A DNA stretch of 32,394 bases from a virus, in IMG/VR virus record IMGVR_UViG_3300042691_012768, positions 1 through 32,394 of that record, one strand, 5' to 3'. The notes beneath the pieces are model-generated. The model made no database searches, was not told where the DNA came from, and worked only from the letters and a program-made list of their open reading frames with translations. Below are positions 1-30,152 of the stretch, piece after piece; positions within the stretch are counted from its first letter, which is position 1, and each line of letters starts with the position of its first letter. Made by a program: the position numbers and the translations under genes.

Positions 1-1124
1 ATGAAAATAAAAGATATGAAATAATTTTCGGAAATGATATCAATGGTAAAAAATTAAATTCAGGTGATCAAGTTTTAATTTATTATCTAAGAATAGATGC
101 AGAGAGTAATGTATCAATAGGAACTGGTGGTTTAAACAATCAGTTCATTGTTAGATATAATTCATTATTATATCCAAATGTATTAGAAGACACAAATTCT
201 GTAAATGCAAATTATTTGACTATTAGTGATTTAAGAAATGTTTTTGTTAACAATGCATATCCATCAACAGATTTTAAAAACGAAGAAACTGTTGATGACA
301 TACGAAGAAACGCACCACAAAACTTTAGATCACAATATAGATTAACAACTAAAATAGATTATGAATCATATATAAAAAATAATTTTTCTGATTTAATACG
401 GGATGTTAAGATATTTAACAACAATGAATATTTGATGAATTATATGAAATACATATATGAAATTGGACTATCAAATCCTGGTAAAGAATTGAATTTATTA
501 TTCAATCAGGTTAAATTTTCAAATGCATGTAATTTTAATAATTTATATTTTTGTTCTGTTCCTAAATCTAAAAATCAATCATTTTTAAATCCACCTCAAA
601 AAGAAATGATATTGAATCAACTAGATAAATGGAAAATATTAACAACAGAAATAGTTCCATTAGATCCAGTATATATGATGTTTGATTTTTATGTTCCCAC
701 CATAACAAATAATCTATCTTTAGATGAGTTAGTTAATACTAAACTAAGAATATTTAAATCAAGAACAACAACACTATCAGATTCTATGATTATTAGTAAA
801 ATAATCAATATTTTTAATGATGCTTTCTTACATGAAAATTGTACATTAGGGAAATATGTTGACATTAATAGAATTACTACAAATATTTTATCATTGGATG
901 ATGTTAAATTTATAAAAACAATAAACACTAAAACAAATGAAGTAACAGATGGACTATCTTTATTATGTTGGAATTATTATTATCCAAGCAATGACAGAAA
1001 AGTTTACACACAAAACGTTATTTTAGATGAATTTAAATTTCCTGTTTTTAATGATTTAGAAAATATTTCTAAAAAGATAGAAATTTATAACGAAACATTT
1101 GAAACAGAAGCAACTCAATTTTAA
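1..1124 (+). CDS. gp6: Baseplate wedge protein, T4 gp6-like (5' partial)
   Basis: The reading frame is open from base 3 to the TAA at 1122-1124 and enters from outside the window, so 373 C-terminal residues are visible. A TTG at 216 is not a real start, because homologous sequence continues upstream. The first visible residues contain IIFGNDINGKKL followed by a GDQVLIYYLR strand and a GTGGLNNQF segment, the pattern of the gp6/baseplate J-like fold. Next comes a DDIRRNAPQNFRSQYRLTT motif, typical of this family, then DYESYI and a phage-type domain rich in beta strands. T4 gp6 is 660 residues and forms the wedge ring around the hub; this fragment matches its C-terminal half to two thirds. The stop lies 5 bases before the next gene, so it is probably co-transcribed with the giant virion genes. 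The family call is firm; the exact baseplate role is inferred from the family. Confidence 0.88.
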   Translation, partial: ENKRYEIIFGNDINGKKLNSGDQVLIYYLRIDAESNVSIGTGGLNNQFIVRYNSLLYPNVLEDTNSVNANYLTISDLRNVFVNNAYPSTDFKNEETVDDIRRNAPQNFRSQYRLTTKIDYESYIKNNFSDLIRDVKIFNNNEYLMNYMKYIYEIGLSNPGKELNLLFNQVKFSNACNFNNLYFCSVPKSKNQSFLNPPQKEMILNQLDKWKILTTEIVPLDPVYMMFDFYVPTITNNLSLDELVNTKLRIFKSRTTTLSDSMIISKIINIFNDAFLHENCTLGKYVDINRITTNILSLDDVKFIKTINTKTNEVTDGLSLLCWNYYYPSNDRKVYTQNVILDEFKFPVFNDLENISKKIEIYNETFETEATQF

Positions 1125-21130: not shown

Positions 21131-21952
21131 ATGGATGTTATAGACCCAAATTGCCAAGATATAGTTTTAATTTCAGAGGATTATTGTCTGGATAAATCGT
21201 TTGATATAATTCAGAAAAATTTTGATGTTTTAACAAAAAAGTTAGACAATAAACAAAAAGAAGTAGATTTATATAAAATACTAAAAGAAAAATATAGTAA
21301 AAATAAACAAAAGTATGAAAAATTTTTGACATTTGTAAATCAATTTAGCGGAAATTTATTAGACGTTTATTATGTGTTTGAGAAACACCGAAATATTTGG
21401 AGTATAATAAACACACCAATGGAAATAGTATATCCATCAATAGTATCATTAAGTGGTTGGGGTGAGTTTGATGTTAAAAAAGGTATTCTAAACAAAACAT
21501 TAGCCTCTCAAAATACACAAAAAGATATATTAGAATGGACTAACTATAAATTCCAATATTCATTATATGGTATATATGAATATTTAAATGTAAGAGTATA
21601 TGTAGATACTATCTTACCATTTAAATTTTCACTTAAAGCTGAATATGATGAATTATGTTTAGCTAATGGTGGGACTATGACAGTATGTTGTAGAGGTTGT
21701 GATTTTAATGGAGGTGTTAAAGGATGTAATAGAATGGGTCCAAATGGAGAACGTGTTTGTGGTAATATGTATGATTATTGTCCTAAGGCAACACATAGTA
21801 AAAATTGTGCTACTGGACAATGTAAGGGTAGTGGTGGTAAAAAACTAGAAATAAATAAAACTATAACATTACCTAATGATACATATTTGTTAGGTAGCGA
21901 TATTTTAAATTTAAAAGTGAATAAAGGAACAAAATTATGGGAAATAATATAA
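21131..21952 (+). CDS. Virion protein with cysteine-rich block (paralogous set, member 1)
   Basis: 273 residues. The N-terminus carries LDKSFDIIQKNF (residues 20-31), a variant of a motif shared with the next two genes and common at the start of phage fibre-type proteins. Residues 32-70 are a charged helix (KKLDNKQKEVDLYKILKEK). A beta-rich domain follows, with the segment YPSIVSL. Residues 176-231 hold nine cysteines, including C186, C187 and C190, in a Gly-rich stretch. That fits either a zinc or a disulphide-stabilised knob, and a final beta hairpin closes the protein. There is no secretion signal, so any disulphides would form after lysis. It overlaps the next gene by 16 bases. It is likely a baseplate- or tail-attached structural protein; the exact role is unknown. 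Confidence 0.55.
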   Translation: MDVIDPNCQDIVLISEDYCLDKSFDIIQKNFDVLTKKLDNKQKEVDLYKILKEKYSKNKQKYEKFLTFVNQFSGNLLDVYYVFEKHRNIWSIINTPMEIVYPSIVSLSGWGEFDVKKGILNKTLASQNTQKDILEWTNYKFQYSLYGIYEYLNVRVYVDTILPFKFSLKAEYDELCLANGGTMTVCCRGCDFNGGVKGCNRMGPNGERVCGNMYDYCPKATHSKNCATGQCKGSGGKKLEINKTITLPNDTYLLGSDILNLKVNKGTKLWEII

Positions 21953-22764
21953 TTCTAGGTAATTTTTCTAAAACACAAGAAATAGGAGATTCTATAAAAG
22001 AAATAAATAATTCATTTAAAATAGTAGATGAATTATTAACTACTCAAAAAGACTCTCAAGAAGATATAAATACGTTTTGTTCTTTTATAGAGGAAATGTT
22101 TGATGAGTTAAAATTTTCTTATGAATTTATAAAAGATAACAGGTTTTATTTTTATGATCTTTGGGATGAAGTCCTAGAAAAAAAGGAATTGTTTTTGAAA
22201 CCTATAGTGAGTTTGTATCCCCAAAAAATAAGGTCAGATTCTTCAACAATTGATCAATCTTATATAGAAAATCTTTTATATGCGTGGGTTACAAAAAATT
22301 ATATTATAACCAGCAACTCAAAAGATAAACCAGAATATATCGAAGGTCAAAAAATTATTATTTATTATGTTTTAGCTTATGAAAAAACGGAACAATCAAA
22401 GAATAATGTAGATATTTCTTCCACTACATGTATAACTAGTGATATAGAAGTGGTTGTCAATTGTACATCTAAGAGAAGTGGTCAATCTTGTGTTGATGGT
22501 TGTGGATGTGTTTCATGTTCTACGACCGTACGTTGTAATGAAAAAGGACGATTGAATTGCTTTTATACAGACTCTTTCACAAATAGAAATGGAGTTGAAC
22601 GATATCTTAGAGGTATAACTAGTTATTTATTCGAAGAATATCCTGATTCTTCGTTTGGTTATGTTACTTTTATTGTGAATGACTGTGAATGGAAATTACA
22701 AAGGGTTACTGGATTAATTCCTGAAGAAACAAAAGAAAGAAGAAGAACTGGTCTTTTAATATGA
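21937..22764 (+). CDS. Virion protein with cysteine-rich block (paralogous set, member 2)
   Basis: 275 residues. IGDSIKEINNSF at 16-27 is the clearest version in this window of the GD-S-(I/L)-x-x-I-N-x-x-F N-terminal motif. A helical region follows, then KPIVSLYPQ, which aligns with YPSIVSL of the previous protein, then the strand pair YIEGQKIIIYYVLAYEK. Residues 165-208 contain eight cysteines (165, 176, 185, 189, 191, 194, 200, 208) and are probably a metal- or disulphide-stabilised loop, placed like the one in the neighbour but with different spacing. The order helix, strands, Cys-rich block, last strands matches gene 21131, so I read the two as diverged duplicates. It starts inside the previous gene (16-base overlap) and overlaps the Hint gene by 4 bases. 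Confidence 0.55.
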   Translation: MGNNIILGNFSKTQEIGDSIKEINNSFKIVDELLTTQKDSQEDINTFCSFIEEMFDELKFSYEFIKDNRFYFYDLWDEVLEKKELFLKPIVSLYPQKIRSDSSTIDQSYIENLLYAWVTKNYIITSNSKDKPEYIEGQKIIIYYVLAYEKTEQSKNNVDISSTTCITSDIEVVVNCTSKRSGQSCVDGCGCVSCSTTVRCNEKGRLNCFYTDSFTNRNGVERYLRGITSYLFEEYPDSSFGYVTFIVNDCEWKLQRVTGLIPEETKERRRTGLLI

Positions 22765-25553
22765 ATATAATTCCTATAAACGAAGAAGATAATGTTGGTG
22801 ATGGATTAGCAAAAATAAATTATAATTTTGTTAAATTAAATCAAGATACTTGTGAACTCTTAGAAACAAAACAGGATAATTATTCTTCTTTAAAAAAGAT
22901 AGAAGATTTAATGTTATGGTTAGATGATGTTATATCGTATACAGATTATGATAAACTTCAAAAATTAGAGACTACAATTCAAATGTTAAGTAGTTATTGG
23001 AATAAATATGAATTTACTGTTCAATACCCATTTAATCCTAGTAATGGGTTTACCTCATCATTAGTAAGTGCTGGAGAATTTGGTGGTTTGTCATCTTTTA
23101 ATTTATCAACAACAAATCAATCTGATCAAGAAAATTTAATAGGTGAAGTTTTAGTAAAACAAGGTTTTTATGAAACTGTAAACTTATCAATTAAAGGTCT
23201 TAAAGATTTTGAACTTTTATATGTATATAGAGATACCAATGGAGTGTTTGTTAAATGGGATTTTTTAGATCCTTCTTTTATATTTAATTTATCTGTAGAT
23301 TTAGCAAATAATTTATATTATGACGGAACTTTAATCGATATATATAAAATACCATATTACAGTGCAATAACAAAAAATAAAGATTTTGCTTTATTCGAAG
23401 AACAAATATTTGCTACCTTTTCAACTAAAAGAATTTCTATAAAAGGAACAATTCAACCAGTAGATAAAATAAGTTTAGATAATTTGCTCGTTGTATATGA
23501 TGATTTTCAAAGAATAGAAGAAGAGACTGTAGAAGACGAAGAAGGTGAAATTATAGCTTCTACTGAAGTTAATGTAACAACATTTACGCCAGAAATTATA
23601 AACTTAAATTCAATTATACCACAAAAAAATATATTATATAAGGATAAAATTTCTAGAATAAATGATTCTGTATTAGAATCAGCAGAAAGTAACCCTAGAT
23701 TAAATAGACTTTGTTTAAATTTTTTAGATAAAAACTACCCAGCTAAAAAATATTTTGATGGAACTGTTGTAAATGTTGTGTTTTTTCTTTATAATTTAAT
23801 AGGTTATGATACAAACGCAACTTCTTTGGTAAGAACAGACTATTATGACCAAGCAGATATTTCTACACCAAAAAATAAATTAGAACTTTTTAATAAAAAA
23901 GATTTATCATTAATAGCACCTAGCTCAAACACAACATTTACCGTTTATTTTTCCAAAAAAGATTCATATATAGAAAAAATAGTAAATGTAAAATATATAA
24001 AAAATACTGATATAGTCGAAAATACTGATCGAGTAACAGGAAAAGTTACACAAGTAGAAAACCATTATTGGGAATTTAAAAACGCAACATTAGGAGCACC
24101 ATTTAATACAAAACTGATAGATATTAATTTAGATTTGGAAGAAGCTCCTACAACATTCTTTACTGATCTAAAGGAATTTGGTACTTTACCAGCACCAGCA
24201 CCAGCTACTAATACTACTGAATATGGTGGAAATGATACAAAAGAAGAAAAAGAAAAGAAAAAAAATAAAAAGAAAAAAGATAAAGATAATCAAAAAGAAA
24301 AAGACAAAAAACAAAAAGAAAAAGAGCAACGAGAAAAGAAAAAAGAAAAAGAAAAAGAAAAAAAAGCAAAAGAAAAGGAAAGAAGACAAGACAAGAAAGA
24401 AAAAGAGAAAGAGAAACGGGAAAATAAAAAAGAAAAAGAAGATCAGAAAAAACAAAAACAAAAAGATAAAGATAAAGATAATAATAATAACAAAAAAAAT
24501 AATGAAAATAATAGAAAAAAGGAAAAAGGTAAAGTTGATAATCAAGTAAAGAAAAAGGATAATGAACGACAAAAAGACAAAGAGAAACAAGATAAAACTG
24601 ATAATGTAAAGAATAATAAACAAAACGAAAATAATAAAAAACAAGAACAAAATAATAAAAATAAAGAAGAAAATAATAAAAAACAGAATAAAGAAACGAA
24701 TCAAAATAAAACTAATAAGGAAAAGAACCAAGAGCAGAAACAAAACAACGATAACCAAGATAAAAAAAATAAAGAAGCAAAGGCTAAAAAAGACAAAGAA
24801 GACGAGGATAATAGACAAAAAGAAAAACAAAGGAAAAACGACGAAGAAAAGAAAAAATCAGAAGAACAGAAACAGAGAGATAAGAAAAAAAAGGACGATG
24901 ATGATAAAAAGAAAAAACAAGACGATGATGATAAAAAGAAAAAACAAAACGCACAAGAAAATAAAGGAACTAAACAAGGAAACAATGTAGAAACAAAACA
25001 ACAAAAGAAAAACGAAGAAGCAAAACAACAACACAAGGCTTCTGGCGGCGGCGGCGGCGGTGGTGGCGGCGGCGGTGGTGGCGGCGGCGGTGGTGGACCA
25101 AAATGTTTTGTTTCTGGTACTACAGTTACATTGTTTAATAATTATTTTATTAATATCGAAGATGTTAATATTGGAACTGAAATTTTAACTTATAATTTTA
25201 ACACAAAACAAAATGAAATAGGAATCGTTTCAGGAATAGAAACATCACAAGAAACTTCATTATTAAAAATTGTTTTAAATTCTGGAAAGGTATTATTGTC
25301 AACTCATATGCATCCTTATTATGTATATGACAATGGATTATCTACATATAATCCAGAAGAATATGCTAAATTATTCCCTAATGAAAAACTGACAAATAAA
25401 CTTAAAGTTGGAGATATTTTAGTAGATTCAAATAATAATAAACATATTATTGATAATATAGAAGAAGTTGAATGTGAAGAAATCAATGTTTACAATTTAA
25501 TAATAAACGGAAATCAAAATTATTATGCAAATAACATACTGGTTGGTAACTAA
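22761..25553 (+). CDS. Fibre-like protein with Lys/Glu stalk, poly-Gly linker and C-terminal Hint domain
   Basis: 930 residues. The N-terminus has VGDGLAKINYNF (12-23), the motif shared with the two preceding genes, then a short coiled coil and a beta-rich body to about 470. Then come PAPAPA (477-482), a Lys/Glu/Asp/Asn/Gln-only stalk (about 494-760), 18 glycines (762-779), Pro-Lys, and a Hint domain from C782 to N930. The Hint domain shows CFVSGTTVTL (block A), VNIGTEILTYN, LSTHMHPYYV with the T848-x-x-H851 pair (block B), and NVYNLIINGNQNYYANNILV (block F). The stop follows N930 directly, so there is no C-terminal extein, and the usual penultimate His is Gly. From the family, C782 should allow N-to-S acyl shift and cleavage or ligation of the upstream part. 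Location points to a self-processing virion fibre or adhesin; cleavage itself is inferred. Confidence 0.75.
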   Translation: MNIIPINEEDNVGDGLAKINYNFVKLNQDTCELLETKQDNYSSLKKIEDLMLWLDDVISYTDYDKLQKLETTIQMLSSYWNKYEFTVQYPFNPSNGFTSSLVSAGEFGGLSSFNLSTTNQSDQENLIGEVLVKQGFYETVNLSIKGLKDFELLYVYRDTNGVFVKWDFLDPSFIFNLSVDLANNLYYDGTLIDIYKIPYYSAITKNKDFALFEEQIFATFSTKRISIKGTIQPVDKISLDNLLVVYDDFQRIEEETVEDEEGEIIASTEVNVTTFTPEIINLNSIIPQKNILYKDKISRINDSVLESAESNPRLNRLCLNFLDKNYPAKKYFDGTVVNVVFFLYNLIGYDTNATSLVRTDYYDQADISTPKNKLELFNKKDLSLIAPSSNTTFTVYFSKKDSYIEKIVNVKYIKNTDIVENTDRVTGKVTQVENHYWEFKNATLGAPFNTKLIDINLDLEEAPTTFFTDLKEFGTLPAPAPATNTTEYGGNDTKEEKEKKKNKKKKDKDNQKEKDKKQKEKEQREKKKEKEKEKKAKEKERRQDKKEKEKEKRENKKEKEDQKKQKQKDKDKDNNNNKKNNENNRKKEKGKVDNQVKKKDNERQKDKEKQDKTDNVKNNKQNENNKKQEQNNKNKEENNKKQNKETNQNKTNKEKNQEQKQNNDNQDKKNKEAKAKKDKEDEDNRQKEKQRKNDEEKKKSEEQKQRDKKKKDDDDKKKKQDDDDKKKKQNAQENKGTKQGNNVETKQQKKNEEAKQQHKASGGGGGGGGGGGGGGGGGGPKCFVSGTTVTLFNNYFINIEDVNIGTEILTYNFNTKQNEIGIVSGIETSQETSLLKIVLNSGKVLLSTHMHPYYVYDNGLSTYNPEEYAKLFPNEKLTNKLKVGDILVDSNNNKHIIDNIEEVECEEINVYNLIINGNQNYYANNILVGN
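24240..25040 (+). repeat. Low-complexity Lys/Glu/Asn/Gln/Asp stalk
   Basis: Residues about 494-760 of the Hint protein consist almost wholly of K, E, D, N, Q and R, encoded mostly by AAA, GAA, AAT, GAT and CAA. The first third is E/K-rich (EKEKEKKAKEKERRQ), like single alpha-helices. The middle is N/K/Q-rich, and the end has D4K4Q blocks. Strong base skew makes the opposite strand an open, hydrophobic, non-coding frame at 24186-24830. It is probably an extended or flexible spacer. Confidence 0.85.
24894..24947 (+). repeat. 27-bp perfect tandem duplication
   Basis: The 27 bases at 24894-24920, starting GACGATGATGATAAAAAG, are repeated without change at 24921-24947. They encode DDDDKKKKQ twice. 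This is in-frame expansion of the charged stalk, consistent with slippage. Confidence 0.92.
25044..25097 (+). repeat. GC-rich poly-glycine tract (15-bp unit x3)
   Basis: Eighteen Gly codons in a row: two GGC, then three exact copies of GGCGGCGGCGGTGGT (25050-25094), then GGA. Eleven of the 18 codons are GGC, although glycine elsewhere in the window is mostly GGT or GGA. It is the most GC-rich spot I noticed in an AT-rich sequence and lies two residues before the Hint cysteine. Confidence 0.95.
25104..25550 (+). other. Hint (hedgehog/intein) autoprocessing domain
   Basis: 149 residues, C782-N930 of the protein encoded from 22761. Candidate active residues are C782 (nucleophile), T848 and H851 (assist the acyl shift) and N930 (last residue). 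No homing endonuclease is inserted, and the size is that of a mini-intein or Hog-type Hint module. The absence of anything after N930 rules out normal splicing and leaves N-terminal cleavage or transfer of the upstream part to another nucleophile. Confidence 0.8.
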
Positions 25554-25606: not shown

Positions 25607-26182
25607 ATGGCTAATTTGACATTTGATGATTTCCCTGCTAGAGAAGATGTTGAAACTGATGATTATTTCATAATCAATAGACAATCGGACCCAGATTTTC
25701 CAGAGGGAAGAATAAGTTCTGAAATATTAAGAGATTATATTTTAACAGATTTAATGCATCAAAATTTGTTCTTTAGTAAAGAACAAATTGTTAATGTATC
25801 GATAGCAAATAATTTTGTTGATATAAAAAATAGTGATAACACTTTAATAGATTTTAAAAATCAAAAAACTGCTGTAAATGGTATATTTGAAGTAGAATGT
25901 ATTGAATTTAATAATGATATATCAAATAGTGTTTTATGTTATTATGATTTAGTGTGGATTCCTGTTGATAACAAATATGAGAATATTACGTTTTTCTCTA
26001 ATTATGTTTTACCTATTAATAGTGATTTAAATTTAGAAACTAAAAATTTTCATCACCTTTTTCTTCCTAGATTCATACCACAAACTTTAGGTAGTTTTAG
26101 ATTGAATATAAGGTTTTCTCAAGAAATCCAAAATTATAAAACAAATATAAAAACAAAAATGTGGCTTTTCCAAAATAAATAA
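25607..26182 (+). CDS. Short fibre-like or virion-associated protein
   Basis: 191 residues. The N-terminus FPAREDVETDDYFIINRQ followed by RISSEILRDYI resembles the first 50 residues of the 721-residue fibre at 10037 and the attachment modules of many phage fibres (an acidic pair, D-Y-F-I-I-N, then a helix ending in DYI). The body is beta-rich with paired hydrophobic strands (VLCYYDLVWIPVD, LGSFRLNIRFS), like a small tip domain. There are no enzyme motifs. It stands between the Hint gene and the tail assembly chaperone gene, the usual place for the last fibre gene. A candidate late promoter precedes it. It may be a short fibre or a fibre cap; specificity is unknown. Confidence 0.55.
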   Translation: MANLTFDDFPAREDVETDDYFIINRQSDPDFPEGRISSEILRDYILTDLMHQNLFFSKEQIVNVSIANNFVDIKNSDNTLIDFKNQKTAVNGIFEVECIEFNNDISNSVLCYYDLVWIPVDNKYENITFFSNYVLPINSDLNLETKNFHHLFLPRFIPQTLGSFRLNIRFSQEIQNYKTNIKTKMWLFQNK

Positions 26183-26839: not shown

Positions 26840-27315
26840 ATTTAACACCTATTAATGTATATATAAACAATAATTTAGAAGAAGATAAAAATAAAATTAA
26901 ACAATTTAATTTATTCCTACTAGATATTTTGTCTTCTATAAAACTCATACATTGGCATAGTGACAATTATAATTTTCATAAAATCTTAGATGATGTTTAT
27001 AATAATTTTAATGAACTTTTTGATAAACTTTCAGAAGAAATTATTGGTGTTTCTAAGAACAAGAATATTTTTTTCAATATACAATGCCCAGAAAGAAACT
27101 TAACTAGTTTATTTGATTGTAATTGTTTTCAAGATCAAGTAAATGAATATTATTCTATTTTAGATTCATTGGAATCAACATTAAAGAATAATGACATGTC
27201 TTTATTATTAAATAATTCAGTAAGTGGTATTAATAATATATTAGAAGAAATATTTTCCGAGTCAAATAAATCTAAATATTTGATAAATATGTTAAAAAAT
27301 TCCAATTCCGCTTAG
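26836..27315 (+). CDS. Ferritin-like (DUF5856/Dps-like) helical protein
   Basis: 159 residues, almost wholly helical. The segment LLDILSSIKLIHWHSDNYNFHKILDDVYNNFNELFDKLSEEIIG (residues 29-71, read in parts) matches the Dps/ferritin-like pattern: an HW pair, a His seven residues further on in NFHK, then acidic residues along the next helix (E60, D63, E67, E68). Phage proteins of the DUF5856 type have this arrangement. In Dps such residues hold iron at subunit interfaces; whether this protein binds metal cannot be read from sequence. A Cys pair (C117, C119 region, CNCF) lies in the second half. It is the last gene on this strand, and its 3' end overlaps the convergent gp15-like gene by 24 bases. 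Confidence 0.5.
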   Translation: MNLTPINVYINNNLEEDKNKIKQFNLFLLDILSSIKLIHWHSDNYNFHKILDDVYNNFNELFDKLSEEIIGVSKNKNIFFNIQCPERNLTSLFDCNCFQDQVNEYYSILDSLESTLKNNDMSLLLNNSVSGINNILEEIFSESNKSKYLINMLKNSNSA

Positions 27316-28479
27316 TGCTGATGGTTTATATAATGAAGTAGGAATTAAATCTTTTTTATAAGTTTCATGTCTGTATGTTGTTTCTGATATTATAGACCTA
27401 TACCCTGCTTCATTTTCAACTATAACATCAATATAACCTTGATTTGCGCTTGAGAATGGTAATGAGAATGTAATTGTTTCGTCATCTATAATCTCGTATG
27501 CAGACAATTTATAACCATAAAAACTAGGATATAGTGGCTCAAGCGCAGTTAATCCTTGAAATGGACTATATAAAGTAGGAGAAACATCGAATACATTTGG
27601 ACTAGAACTTATATACATAGCTCTAGTATAGGATAAAAATTTACCCGTTAAATAAATTAGATTGTTTTCATAATATACTTCTATATTGTCTTTAATGATG
27701 TTATGTGGATAATGGCAATAAATATGTGGTCTAGCAGATATATGTGTTGATTCAGTTTCGTATTGATCTAGGTCTGTTATTAATTTACACGAATTAATAT
27801 CATTTTCTAAAACAGGTACAAAATCAGTATTTATATAATAAATTTTTTTAAGTGTTTCATTATAGTCTTCACTTTTAAACAACCATCCTTTAATAGTGAA
27901 TGATGTATCAGCTGTTATTCTAAAAGATTGGTTTGGTGGTAATTCTATTGGATAATTTACGTTTATTGTTCCAGACCAAAGTATCTCTGTTCGTATTTCA
28001 TAATTTTTATTATAACCAACAGGTAATTTCCAAGAAATTATTATATATTGATCACAATAAGGTATAAAATTAGACAATATTTGATCCATGTCTGTTTGAT
28101 ATTTTGTTATTATAGACATGTTTATTCCTATGTTTATAGGAACTGGTTGTCTTATATATTTTATAAAATCACTGTAAGGTCCATCTGCTATAGATTTTGC
28201 GTCTATATTAAATCCTGTGTTTTTGTTAAAAACTCTATTATTATCTCTTTCTATTGATGCAATATTTATTGATATTGCTGGTGTTGTCATTCCACCAGGT
28301 GCTGCTGTTCTTAATGATTCTAAGACTCTTTGTTTAGGAGCATAAACAAATTTAACTTTAAAATTATTAGGTGATGCGTTTCCTTCCTTATCAAATCTTT
28401 TAACTATAATATCATTAAAAGCACCAGCAAATTGTTCTATTAATGTCTGTATTTCTTTATTGTATGTCCAGCTTTTCAC
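27292..28479 (-). CDS. gp15: Tail sheath stabiliser/completion protein, T4 gp15-like, with extra C-terminal domain
   Basis: 395 residues from a GTG start; no ATG is available before the upstream in-frame stop. The N-terminal 230 residues follow T4 gp15 piece by piece: a TYNKEIQTLIEQFAGAF helix and IIVKRF, then KFVYAPKQRVLESL (gp15 has VPITYASKEHFM), then TPAISINIASIERD, then PVPINIGINMSIITKYQTDM and ILSNFIPYCDQYI (gp15 has a matching IKMIYELSIFTRYEDDM and ILPYFQPHF), then FTIKGWLF (gp15: EVNGWMY). gp15 caps the tail and sheath at the neck end. T4 gp15 has 272 residues; here about 150 more form a beta-rich C-terminal domain (IYLTGKFLSYTRAMYIS, DDETITFSLPF, GYIDVIVENEAGYRS), possibly IPT/TIG-like. 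The gene sits 8 bases after the helicase gene. Confidence 0.75.
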   Translation of the reverse strand: MKSWTYNKEIQTLIEQFAGAFNDIIVKRFDKEGNASPNNFKVKFVYAPKQRVLESLRTAAPGGMTTPAISINIASIERDNNRVFNKNTGFNIDAKSIADGPYSDFIKYIRQPVPINIGINMSIITKYQTDMDQILSNFIPYCDQYIIISWKLPVGYNKNYEIRTEILWSGTINVNYPIELPPNQSFRITADTSFTIKGWLFKSEDYNETLKKIYYINTDFVPVLENDINSCKLITDLDQYETESTHISARPHIYCHYPHNIIKDNIEVYYENNLIYLTGKFLSYTRAMYISSSPNVFDVSPTLYSPFQGLTALEPLYPSFYGYKLSAYEIIDDETITFSLPFSSANQGYIDVIVENEAGYRSIISETTYRHETYKKDLIPTSLYKPSALSGIGIF

Positions 28480-28487
28480 TAATATAT

Positions 28488-30152
28488 TTAGTGTATTCTC
28501 TTTAAAAAATGCTTAGGTAATAGAGTTTTATTTTGCATAATCGCTTTTGTTGCATTTCCGTCTAGTATATAAGTTATAGAAAAATCATCTTTAGATCTAG
28601 TACACCTTCCAGCCATTTGTACTAGTGTATTAAGCATATAATAAGAATATTGGTCAGGATTAGAATTTAGTTTCTTTTTAATTCTATTAGAACTCAATGG
28701 TAGGTAGGGAGCTTTCATTATAATTTGGAACCTACCTAAGTCTCCATCCAAGCTTATTCCTGTATCTAAAGATGGACTTATTAATACTGTAGGTATATCC
28801 GATGATTTGTGCTGAGTTAGTATCATTTCATTAGAAATTTCTTCGCTTTTAAACAAAAATCTACTATCACCTTTTAATTTTTTATACAATTCTTGTGTTA
28901 TAAGATTAGTATGTGTATGGATTATTCCTTTATGTTCTTTATGCTGCTTGCATATTTGTAAACAAGCATCAATCATAGATTCTAAATCTTTATTTTTGTT
29001 ATTATATGATAAACTATATCTATTAGAACAATAAATCGGTGATTTTTCAGGATTAAATGGAGAATCTAATTCAATATACTCATATTCATCACTAGAAAGA
29101 CCCATACTACTGGCAAATTGTTTATGGTTACTTAATGTAGCCGACATAAGTAACACCCTATCAGATTCACCAAACACATCTTTGAATAAAGGTCTTATAT
29201 CGTATGGAGTGAATACAATCTTATCAGCTTTCATTTCTTCTATCAAGTAGCTACACTCATCCCAATACTGAATTGCTGTATTTAAATTTGATTGCAATTT
29301 AGATAGTTTATTCATTATCTGAATTTGTTTTTCCTGAAGAGACGAAACCCCATTTTCTTTTGCTAATAAATTAGCTTTCTTTTTTACTTTAGTTAATTCA
29401 TCTAATATTTGGTTGTATACATCAAACAACCAAACCTTTGCTTTGTCTGTGTCATTTTCTTTTATTTTTTTAAATGTTATTCCACATGATTTTAAAAAGG
29501 AGTAATTAATCTCAATAGTAAACTGAGACACTAATTCTTCCTCAATTCCATCAGCTTCATCACAAATAATAATCTGCCTTTTTCGAAGAAATGGTCTTAG
29601 ATTAAAGAAACTTTTATAATTCAAAATAGATGCTTTTGAATATAAACTTTTATTCTTAGATTCATAATATGGACATATACAAGAGTCAAAACATTTTTGT
29701 TTTATTTTCCTAGAAAATATACATGGTGCATAATCAGCGGTAGTCTCTAAATCTACTTGGCATTGATAATTATTTTTACCCTTAAATAAAGAAATCTCTG
29801 GAAATAAATCTTTGTATTGATCTTGTAATGATTTTGTTATTGTTAACAAATAACAACCATAGTTTGGTTTATTATGGTTATCTAAATCGTAATAATATTC
29901 ATTATTTTGATTCATTTTGTGATGATAATAAGAAACTATTTGTTCTTTTCTATCATCATCTATTTCCGATGAACTATTGGCTATAGATAATCCTATATGA
30001 CTTTTGCCTATTCCTGTAGGCATACAAGCTATTACATATTTTTTACCATTAGACCAAATATTATCTATTTTGTCTAATGCTTCTAATTGAGATGGTCTAG
30101 GTGTGGAATTCTCAGGAAAAAATGTCTTTAGATTAAATTTTGTTTGTATCAT
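28488..30152 (-). CDS. DinG/XPD-like superfamily 2 DNA helicase with iron-sulphur cysteines
   Basis: 554 residues. Motifs in order: RPSQLEALDKI (19-29, Q-like); Walker A MPTGIGKS (44-51); LTITKSLQDQY (motif Ia); cysteines C131, C144, C154, C158 and C160, in the place of the 4Fe-4S cluster of XPD/DinG helicases, followed by YYESKNKSLYSKASILNYKSF; DEAD (198-201); MSATLS (motif III); and QMAGRCTRS (motif VI, from about 512). These helicases unwind DNA 5' to 3' using ATP. Five candidate cysteines are present, so which four bind iron is not certain. It overlaps the zinc-finger gene upstream by 20 bases and is followed by the gp15-like gene. Role in phage replication, recombination or repair is inferred. 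It is not UvsW-like in its motifs. Confidence 0.85.
   Translation of the reverse strand: MIQTKFNLKTFFPENSTPRPSQLEALDKIDNIWSNGKKYVIACMPTGIGKSHIGLSIANSSSEIDDDRKEQIVSYYHHKMNQNNEYYYDLDNHNKPNYGCYLLTITKSLQDQYKDLFPEISLFKGKNNYQCQVDLETTADYAPCIFSRKIKQKCFDSCICPYYESKNKSLYSKASILNYKSFFNLRPFLRKRQIIICDEADGIEEELVSQFTIEINYSFLKSCGITFKKIKENDTDKAKVWLFDVYNQILDELTKVKKKANLLAKENGVSSLQEKQIQIMNKLSKLQSNLNTAIQYWDECSYLIEEMKADKIVFTPYDIRPLFKDVFGESDRVLLMSATLSNHKQFASSMGLSSDEYEYIELDSPFNPEKSPIYCSNRYSLSYNNKNKDLESMIDACLQICKQHKEHKGIIHTHTNLITQELYKKLKGDSRFLFKSEEISNEMILTQHKSSDIPTVLISPSLDTGISLDGDLGRFQIIMKAPYLPLSSNRIKKKLNSNPDQYSYYMLNTLVQMAGRCTRSKDDFSITYILDGNATKAIMQNKTLLPKHFLKRIH

Follow-up and report, generated by a model that had tools for sequence, protein, structure and literature searches.

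A glycine-linked, BIL-like Hint domain ends a predicted tail or fibre-like protein of a divergent T4-like phage and recurs on many phage tail proteins

Gene neighbourhood and domain layout

The window (the whole stretch of DNA analysed here) is a linear IMG/VR record of 32,394 nt with 25% GC, and represents part of the genome of a divergent T4-like phage. The interval between its gp6-like and gp15-like genes holds large plus-strand genes without PHROG matches, among them the open reading frame (ORF) 22761-25553, which encodes a 930-aa protein. The helicase gene of the window has relatives in very large phages, and a GroES-like match in the window is weak. The features referred to below are as follows.

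3-1124, plus strand: gp6-like baseplate wedge protein, partial (phrog_219, E 2.7e-13)
22761-25553, plus strand: 930-aa protein with N-terminal region, charged stalk, Gly run and Hint domain
22761-24212, plus strand: residues 1-484, family-less region with GDGLAKINYNF near its start
24213-25043, plus strand: residues 485-761, Lys-rich charged stalk, recognized by composition
25044-25097, plus strand: residues 762-779, run of 18 glycines
25098-25103, plus strand: Pro780-Lys781, before the predicted scissile bond
25104-25550, plus strand: residues 782-930 (149 aa), Hint domain with a BIL-like fold
25104-25106, plus strand: Cys782, predicted nucleophile of the N-S acyl shift
25302-25313, plus strand: block B, T848-H-M-H851
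25545-25550, plus strand: Gly929-Asn930, C-terminal end with the block-G His replaced by Gly and no C-extein
27292-28479, minus strand: gp15-like tail sheath stabiliser (PF16724, E 3.4e-20; phrog_227, E 3.2e-19)
28488-30152, minus strand: DNA helicase

The 277-residue stalk contains 98 Lys, 42 Glu, 41 Asn, 31 Gln and 29 Asp (Asp and Glu together, 71). A first-pass annotation of this DNA had described a Lys/Glu stalk and 18 glycines ahead of a Hint domain, and both the composition of the stalk and the Gly run bear this out. The same annotation took the fibre to end in glycine as an acyl donor, which has to be corrected: because two residues separate the Gly run from Cys782, the donor would end in Pro-Lys (Pro780-Lys781). 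Upstream, residues 1-484 gave no Pfam or PHROG match and no tblastn relative. Since no profile match covers residues 1-781, it is the position between the gp6-like and gp15-like genes that suggests the labels 'virion' and 'fibre' for this putative structural protein.

The preceding gene (21937-22764, 275 aa) carries GDSIKEINNSF near its N-terminus, where the 930-aa protein has GDGLAKINYNF. Paralogy of this gene with the N-terminal region is not supported past the short motif, a weak match (BLASTP E 0.23).

Identity and fold of the Hint domain

Residues 782-930, scanned alone, matched PT-HINT (Pfam PF07591) at E 3e-6, with 28.0 bits against a gathering score of 27.7. A PDB sequence match to CthBIL4 (2lwy) was obtained at E 1.9e-7. 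Twenty-four other phage Hints were combined into a profile that excluded the window; it matched the whole of residues 782-930 at E 2e-26, and profile-to-PDB comparison returned 2lwy at E 7.6e-25. Together with Cys782, Thr848-x-x-His851 and Asn930, all found at the residues first named, these matches uphold the description of the domain as complete.

A single-sequence structure prediction (pLDDT 45) was set aside; the model based on a multiple sequence alignment reached a pLDDT of 97.3. This model was closest to BIL2 of Tetrahymena BUBL1 (6y75; Z 23.6, 1.3 A over 141 residues), followed by CthBIL4 (Z 20.2), the gp41-1 intein (Z 18.8) and hedgehog (Z 17.4). Differences in Z under 1 were treated as ties, and the lead of the BILs over inteins exceeds 1. 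Matches at Z of 8 or above comprised 88 chains, the best 50 of which are inteins, BILs or hedgehog, while Ataxin-1 AXH appeared among the distant matches. The comparison with Hint structures proposed in the annotation therefore came out in favour of the assignment. The domain combines the predicted horseshoe-shaped, all-beta fold of the Hint superfamily with its Cys1 nucleophile and block B TxxH.

A TAA stop lies directly after Asn930, and no downstream frame supplies a C-extein before the next gene, which begins at 25607. The earlier statement that splicing is impossible is thereby sustained, and a second ground can be added to it: Gly929 occupies the block-G His position, a departure from inteins and type-A BILs that had not been listed. 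Because there is neither a +1 residue nor a block-G His, splicing and assisted Asn cleavage are excluded for the window Hint as judged from its sequence. The residues for the N-terminal acyl shift are all kept. Gly929 and the missing C-extein could represent decay of the C-terminal half of the Hint.

Relatives in other phages

No close relative of the Hint or of residues 1-480 was found by tblastn of phage records or by scanning viral contigs with single proteins. Relaxing the latter to E 10 yielded nothing beyond weak matches to incomplete Hints, some of them within helicase, portal and terminase genes. As block A of the Hint reads C-F-x-x-G-T, this motif was used in a degenerate-DNA pattern, in which five Gly codons are followed within 20 bases by C-F-x-x-G-T, against viral contigs. 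With the Gly of the motif encoded as GGA, at least 120 stretches were found, and with GGT, 50. The matches are mostly Gly-run/Hint junctions near a gene end, and such junctions occur in more than 100 viral contigs. By profile, these loci hold at least 108 full-length Hints including that of the window, at least 51 of them non-redundant; these counts do not show how common the linker is among phage Hints in general, since the pattern selects for it. Among the matches listed, 34 of the 51 non-redundant Hints are followed by 0-29 residues, and the residue before Cys is Gly in most relatives. In others the part behind the Hint is longer, for example about 188 residues in a CFPAGT family. The stalk-Gly-Hint layout, which the first-pass annotation had proposed to seek in related phages, thus recurs in many phage tail proteins of viral contigs; the Lys-rich stalk is not shared by the relatives whose proteins were read. 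At four loci (L032, L068, L085 and L086), two phage genes in a row each encode an internal Hint followed by a long further part.

Wherever a function could be assigned, the proteins that carry the Hint are tail or virion structural proteins; several others had no family match. The upstream part of L165 is a lambda J-like tail tip protein (phrog_31, E 3e-122), that of L168 is gpL/Gp84-like (phrog_2048, E 1.7e-46; PF09931 slightly under the cut-off) and that of L137 is a gpI-like tail assembly protein (phrog_32, E 2.9e-25). DUF4815 proteins also serve as hosts (L062, and L106 by phrog_358), and the upstream parts of L010, L091 and L114 are repeat or coiled-coil fibres. Most of the at least 51 non-redundant Hints terminate proteins of these lambda J-, gpI-, gpL/Gp84-like, DUF4815 and repeat-fibre types.

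Versions without the domain exist for two of these proteins. The gpL/Gp84-like proteins of Roseobacter phages CRP-406, -821, -831 and -6 have no Hint and end in '...WGRKSS', the point at which the Hint-bearing L168 and L132 proteins go on as '...WGRSSSN(S/T)GGGGGGG-Hint'. Gene order is similar in the two sets: tape measure, one gene, gpL/Gp84-like gene, DUF6950-like gene and large tail protein. Similarly, L272 matches L114 at 65% identity across the N-terminal 600 residues and stops behind its coiled coil, lacking both linker and Hint. Three distinct and more distant L114-family homologues (L274/L275, L276 and L277) terminate close to the coiled coil or beyond it, again with neither. Two DUF4815 homologues continue beyond the matched part. 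As homologues of two tail proteins keep the gene without the domain, the Hint is, by these sequence comparisons, apparently an optional module and not essential to the structural protein. Linker and Hint are present or absent together in related proteins, and the module therefore appears to be gained or lost as a unit.

Conservation and C-terminal ends

Forty-five Hints from the matches listed, 18-35% identical to the window Hint, were aligned. C1, F2, T6, T67 and H70 (C1, T67 and H70 being Cys782, Thr848 and His851 of the window) are invariant in all 45; in most rows the search pattern itself dictated C1, F2, G5 and T6, but not T67 and H70. Loss of Cys782 or His851 in relatives that keep the gene had been named in the annotation as evidence against processing. 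The corresponding residues are kept in 45/45, whereas homologues of two structural proteins keep the gene and lack the whole domain. Position 148 is His in 43/45 and position 149 Asn in 44/45, figures inflated by the choice of near-full-length profile matches, and the window Hint is the only row of the 45 with Gly at position 148.

The C-terminal chemistry is less strictly kept. Among the matches listed, 44 of the 51 non-redundant Hints have His and 48 have Asn at the last two matched positions. In the same set, the residue at +1 is Ser in four, Thr in one and Cys in none, and the +1 nucleophile is missing or replaced by a non-nucleophilic residue in 46. A 739-aa YNPG-repeat fibre (L091, 3834-6050) carries a Hint ending ...NYFADGVLVG, a natural loss of the final Asn. 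A second group of 15 Gly-linked C-terminal domains, which includes members from L016, L017, L021, L062, L097 and L103, keeps Cys and [S/T]xxH and has no HN end; these match mainly the N-terminal part of the profile and conserve F-x-D-[YF] near their end. For the pairs listed from 10 families, which are relatives and not the window's copy, dN/dS of the Hints is about 0.03-0.27. The Hint domains of the relatives are under purifying selection.

Comparison with known systems

With BIL type A (CthBIL4, 2lwy) the window Hint shares the fold (Z 20.2), Cys1 and TxxH, the absence of an intein-like +1 nucleophile and the absence of a homing endonuclease. Thus, it has the fold and the non-nucleophilic flank of the type, but not the C-terminal His-Asn: it ends in Gly929-Asn930 without a C-flank, and it further differs in its Gly-run linker and in its setting on a phage tail protein. 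BIL type B has no intein-like block G, and its cleavages are uncoupled from splicing; block G of the window Hint is partly kept (NYYANNILVGN). BIL2 of Tetrahymena BUBL1 (6tmm, 6y75) has the closest fold, likewise stands behind a donor domain and does not carry out usual splicing. BIL2 is activated by Zn. BUBL N-exteins, however, are ubiquitin-like and end in Gly-Gly, while the part upstream of the window Hint had no Pfam match and its donor ends Gly18-Pro-Lys; no second ubiquitin-like domain follows the Hint. Chemistry of the BUBL1 kind is putative here.

The hedgehog Hog domain (1at0; Z 17.4) is also a C-terminal Hint that performs the N-terminal acyl shift only, without productive C-terminal cleavage. 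The first-pass annotation had drawn an analogy with the transfer of hedgehog to cholesterol. Fold and sequence similarity are both below those of the BILs, and the window protein ends at Asn930, without a sterol-recognition region. As the nearest folds are BILs and nothing sterol-recognition-like follows, the hedgehog analogy is the weaker one, and hedgehog-like sterol ligation was rejected, there being no residues after Asn930. PT-HINT of polymorphic toxins is the best Pfam match, just over the gathering score; in those toxins, however, the Hint precedes a C-terminal toxin, and pretoxin processing was rejected as no toxin domain lies C-terminal to the window Hint. A class 1 intein was rejected on the stop after Asn930, Gly929 and the lack of a C-extein with +1 Cys, Ser or Thr. 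An intein in a conserved site was likewise rejected, as the Hint forms the very C-terminus and homologues of two other Hint-bearing tail proteins simply end earlier. The jumbo phage NCTB (LT598654) carries three genes with Hints in its tail region, and the 1304-aa product of one of them has a Gly run ahead of a Hint at the C-terminus; its proteins are distant in sequence and annotated only as intein domain proteins.

Proposed self-processing and its alternatives

Hint-family chemistry begins with an N-S acyl shift at Cys1, in which Thr and His of block B take part (PMC4031507, PMC7664689), and BILs without a +1 nucleophile give mainly cleavage products (PMC7664689, PMC4031507). The residues for the first step are kept and the parts for later steps are absent; N-terminal self-processing at Lys781-Cys782 is therefore proposed, in which a BIL-type Hint would act as a removable C-terminal module on a tail or fibre-like protein. 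We assign this reading a probability of roughly 0.68. After folding, Cys782, aided by Thr848 and His851, would attack the Lys781-Cys782 peptide bond and yield a thioester, and resolution of the thioester by water, a thiol or an amine would free residues 1-781 from the Hint. The Gly run would connect the two parts flexibly and without hindrance, exposing the bond and sparing the structural part. Cleavage of the window protein, its presence in the virion and the agent that resolves the thioester are predictions, and removal of the Hint may be slow or conditional.

A tentative special case of this self-removal is covalent transfer, in which a lysine amine of another chain resolves the thioester and the fibre C-terminus is welded to it by an isopeptide bond; the acceptor might be a neighbouring Lys-rich stalk, a tail protein or a host surface protein. 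BIL2 of BUBL, the nearest solved fold, was reported to carry out an ATP-independent conjugation of ubl4 by way of Lys isopeptide bonds (PMC8616854), which makes transfer to lysine a serious possibility. The 98 Lys of the window's stalk, the Gly before Cys in most relatives, as in ubiquitin-like donors, and the missing or non-nucleophilic +1 residue in 46 of 51 Hints (among the matches listed) all agree with it. However, the acceptor is putative, the window donor ends in Pro-Lys and not Gly, the relatives read do not share the Lys-rich stalk, phage N-exteins are not ubiquitin-like as those of BUBL are, and simple hydrolysis requires fewer assumptions. The broader proposition, that uncultured phages widely carry an ATP-independent ligation module, a Gly-linked counterpart of the BUBL BIL gained and lost like a cassette and joining tail C-termini to lysines of the virion or host surface, is more doubtful.

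A first role as a folded C-terminal cap or chaperone of the fibre, with self-cleavage as a timer, is unlikely. Tailspikes have self-cleaving C-terminal chaperone domains with a comparable role, and the position at or near the C-terminus of long tail or fibre proteins in 34/51 (among the matches listed), as well as the existence of related tail proteins without a Hint, would suit such an assembly aid; but the chaperone domains of this kind are trimeric and contact the fibre directly, whereas 5-18 flexible glycines between fibre and Hint are unlike a folding template. We consider it improbable that the domain is a relic, that is, a mini-intein or BIL whose C-extein was cut off by a stop codon, leaving a tail that has no function or is selfish. 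Gly929 in place of His, the missing C-extein and the lack of a homing endonuclease (149 aa only) would fit, and inteins are common in phages (PMC3556154). Against decay stand the same architecture on many unrelated tail proteins with C1, T67 and H70 intact, the purifying selection on the relatives' Hints and a Gly linker that would be superfluous for an intein. Still harder to credit is a Hint fold with a purely structural or binding role and no chemistry: non-processing Hint-like folds do exist, with Ataxin-1 AXH as a distant match, but AXH-like domains do not need Cys1 and TxxH, here the most conserved positions.

The module ends many unrelated tail proteins of uncultured phages, which hints at a common use and suggests that a built-in chemical reaction for trimming, releasing or welding tail proteins is widespread among phages. 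Hint and BIL domains are already known; no paper describing their Gly-linked, C-terminal use on phage tail proteins was found in the open-licence literature. If the domains are self-cleaving, many phage tail proteins would be matured by a built-in reaction instead of a protease. If they ligate, phages would own an energy-free means of cross-linking tails or attaching to hosts, and protein-amine coupling would gain new tools in these domains.

Codon usage of the Gly run and Hints of cellular genomes

Of the 18 codons in the Gly run at 25044-25097, 11 are GGC, whereas outside the run GGC makes up 5 of the 392 Gly codons counted in the window's genes (Fisher p = 1.7e-13 against that test's own background set). 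The DNA of the run repeats the 15-base unit GGTGGTGGCGGCGGC. Among Gly linkers of other families, GGC is raised in 29/43, mostly weakly. The GGC-rich linker could stem from replication slippage or from a recombined linker.

The GGA pattern gave 80 matches in 84,980 bacterial and archaeal genomes, and nine of these loci have a Hint by profile. Proteins from Aenigmatarchaeota, Patescibacteria, Syntrophobacteraceae and Micrarchaeota (L225, L231, L237 and L255) each hold two to four tandem Hints with mostly short, HNKG-rich linkers, several of them directly after a probable signal peptide.
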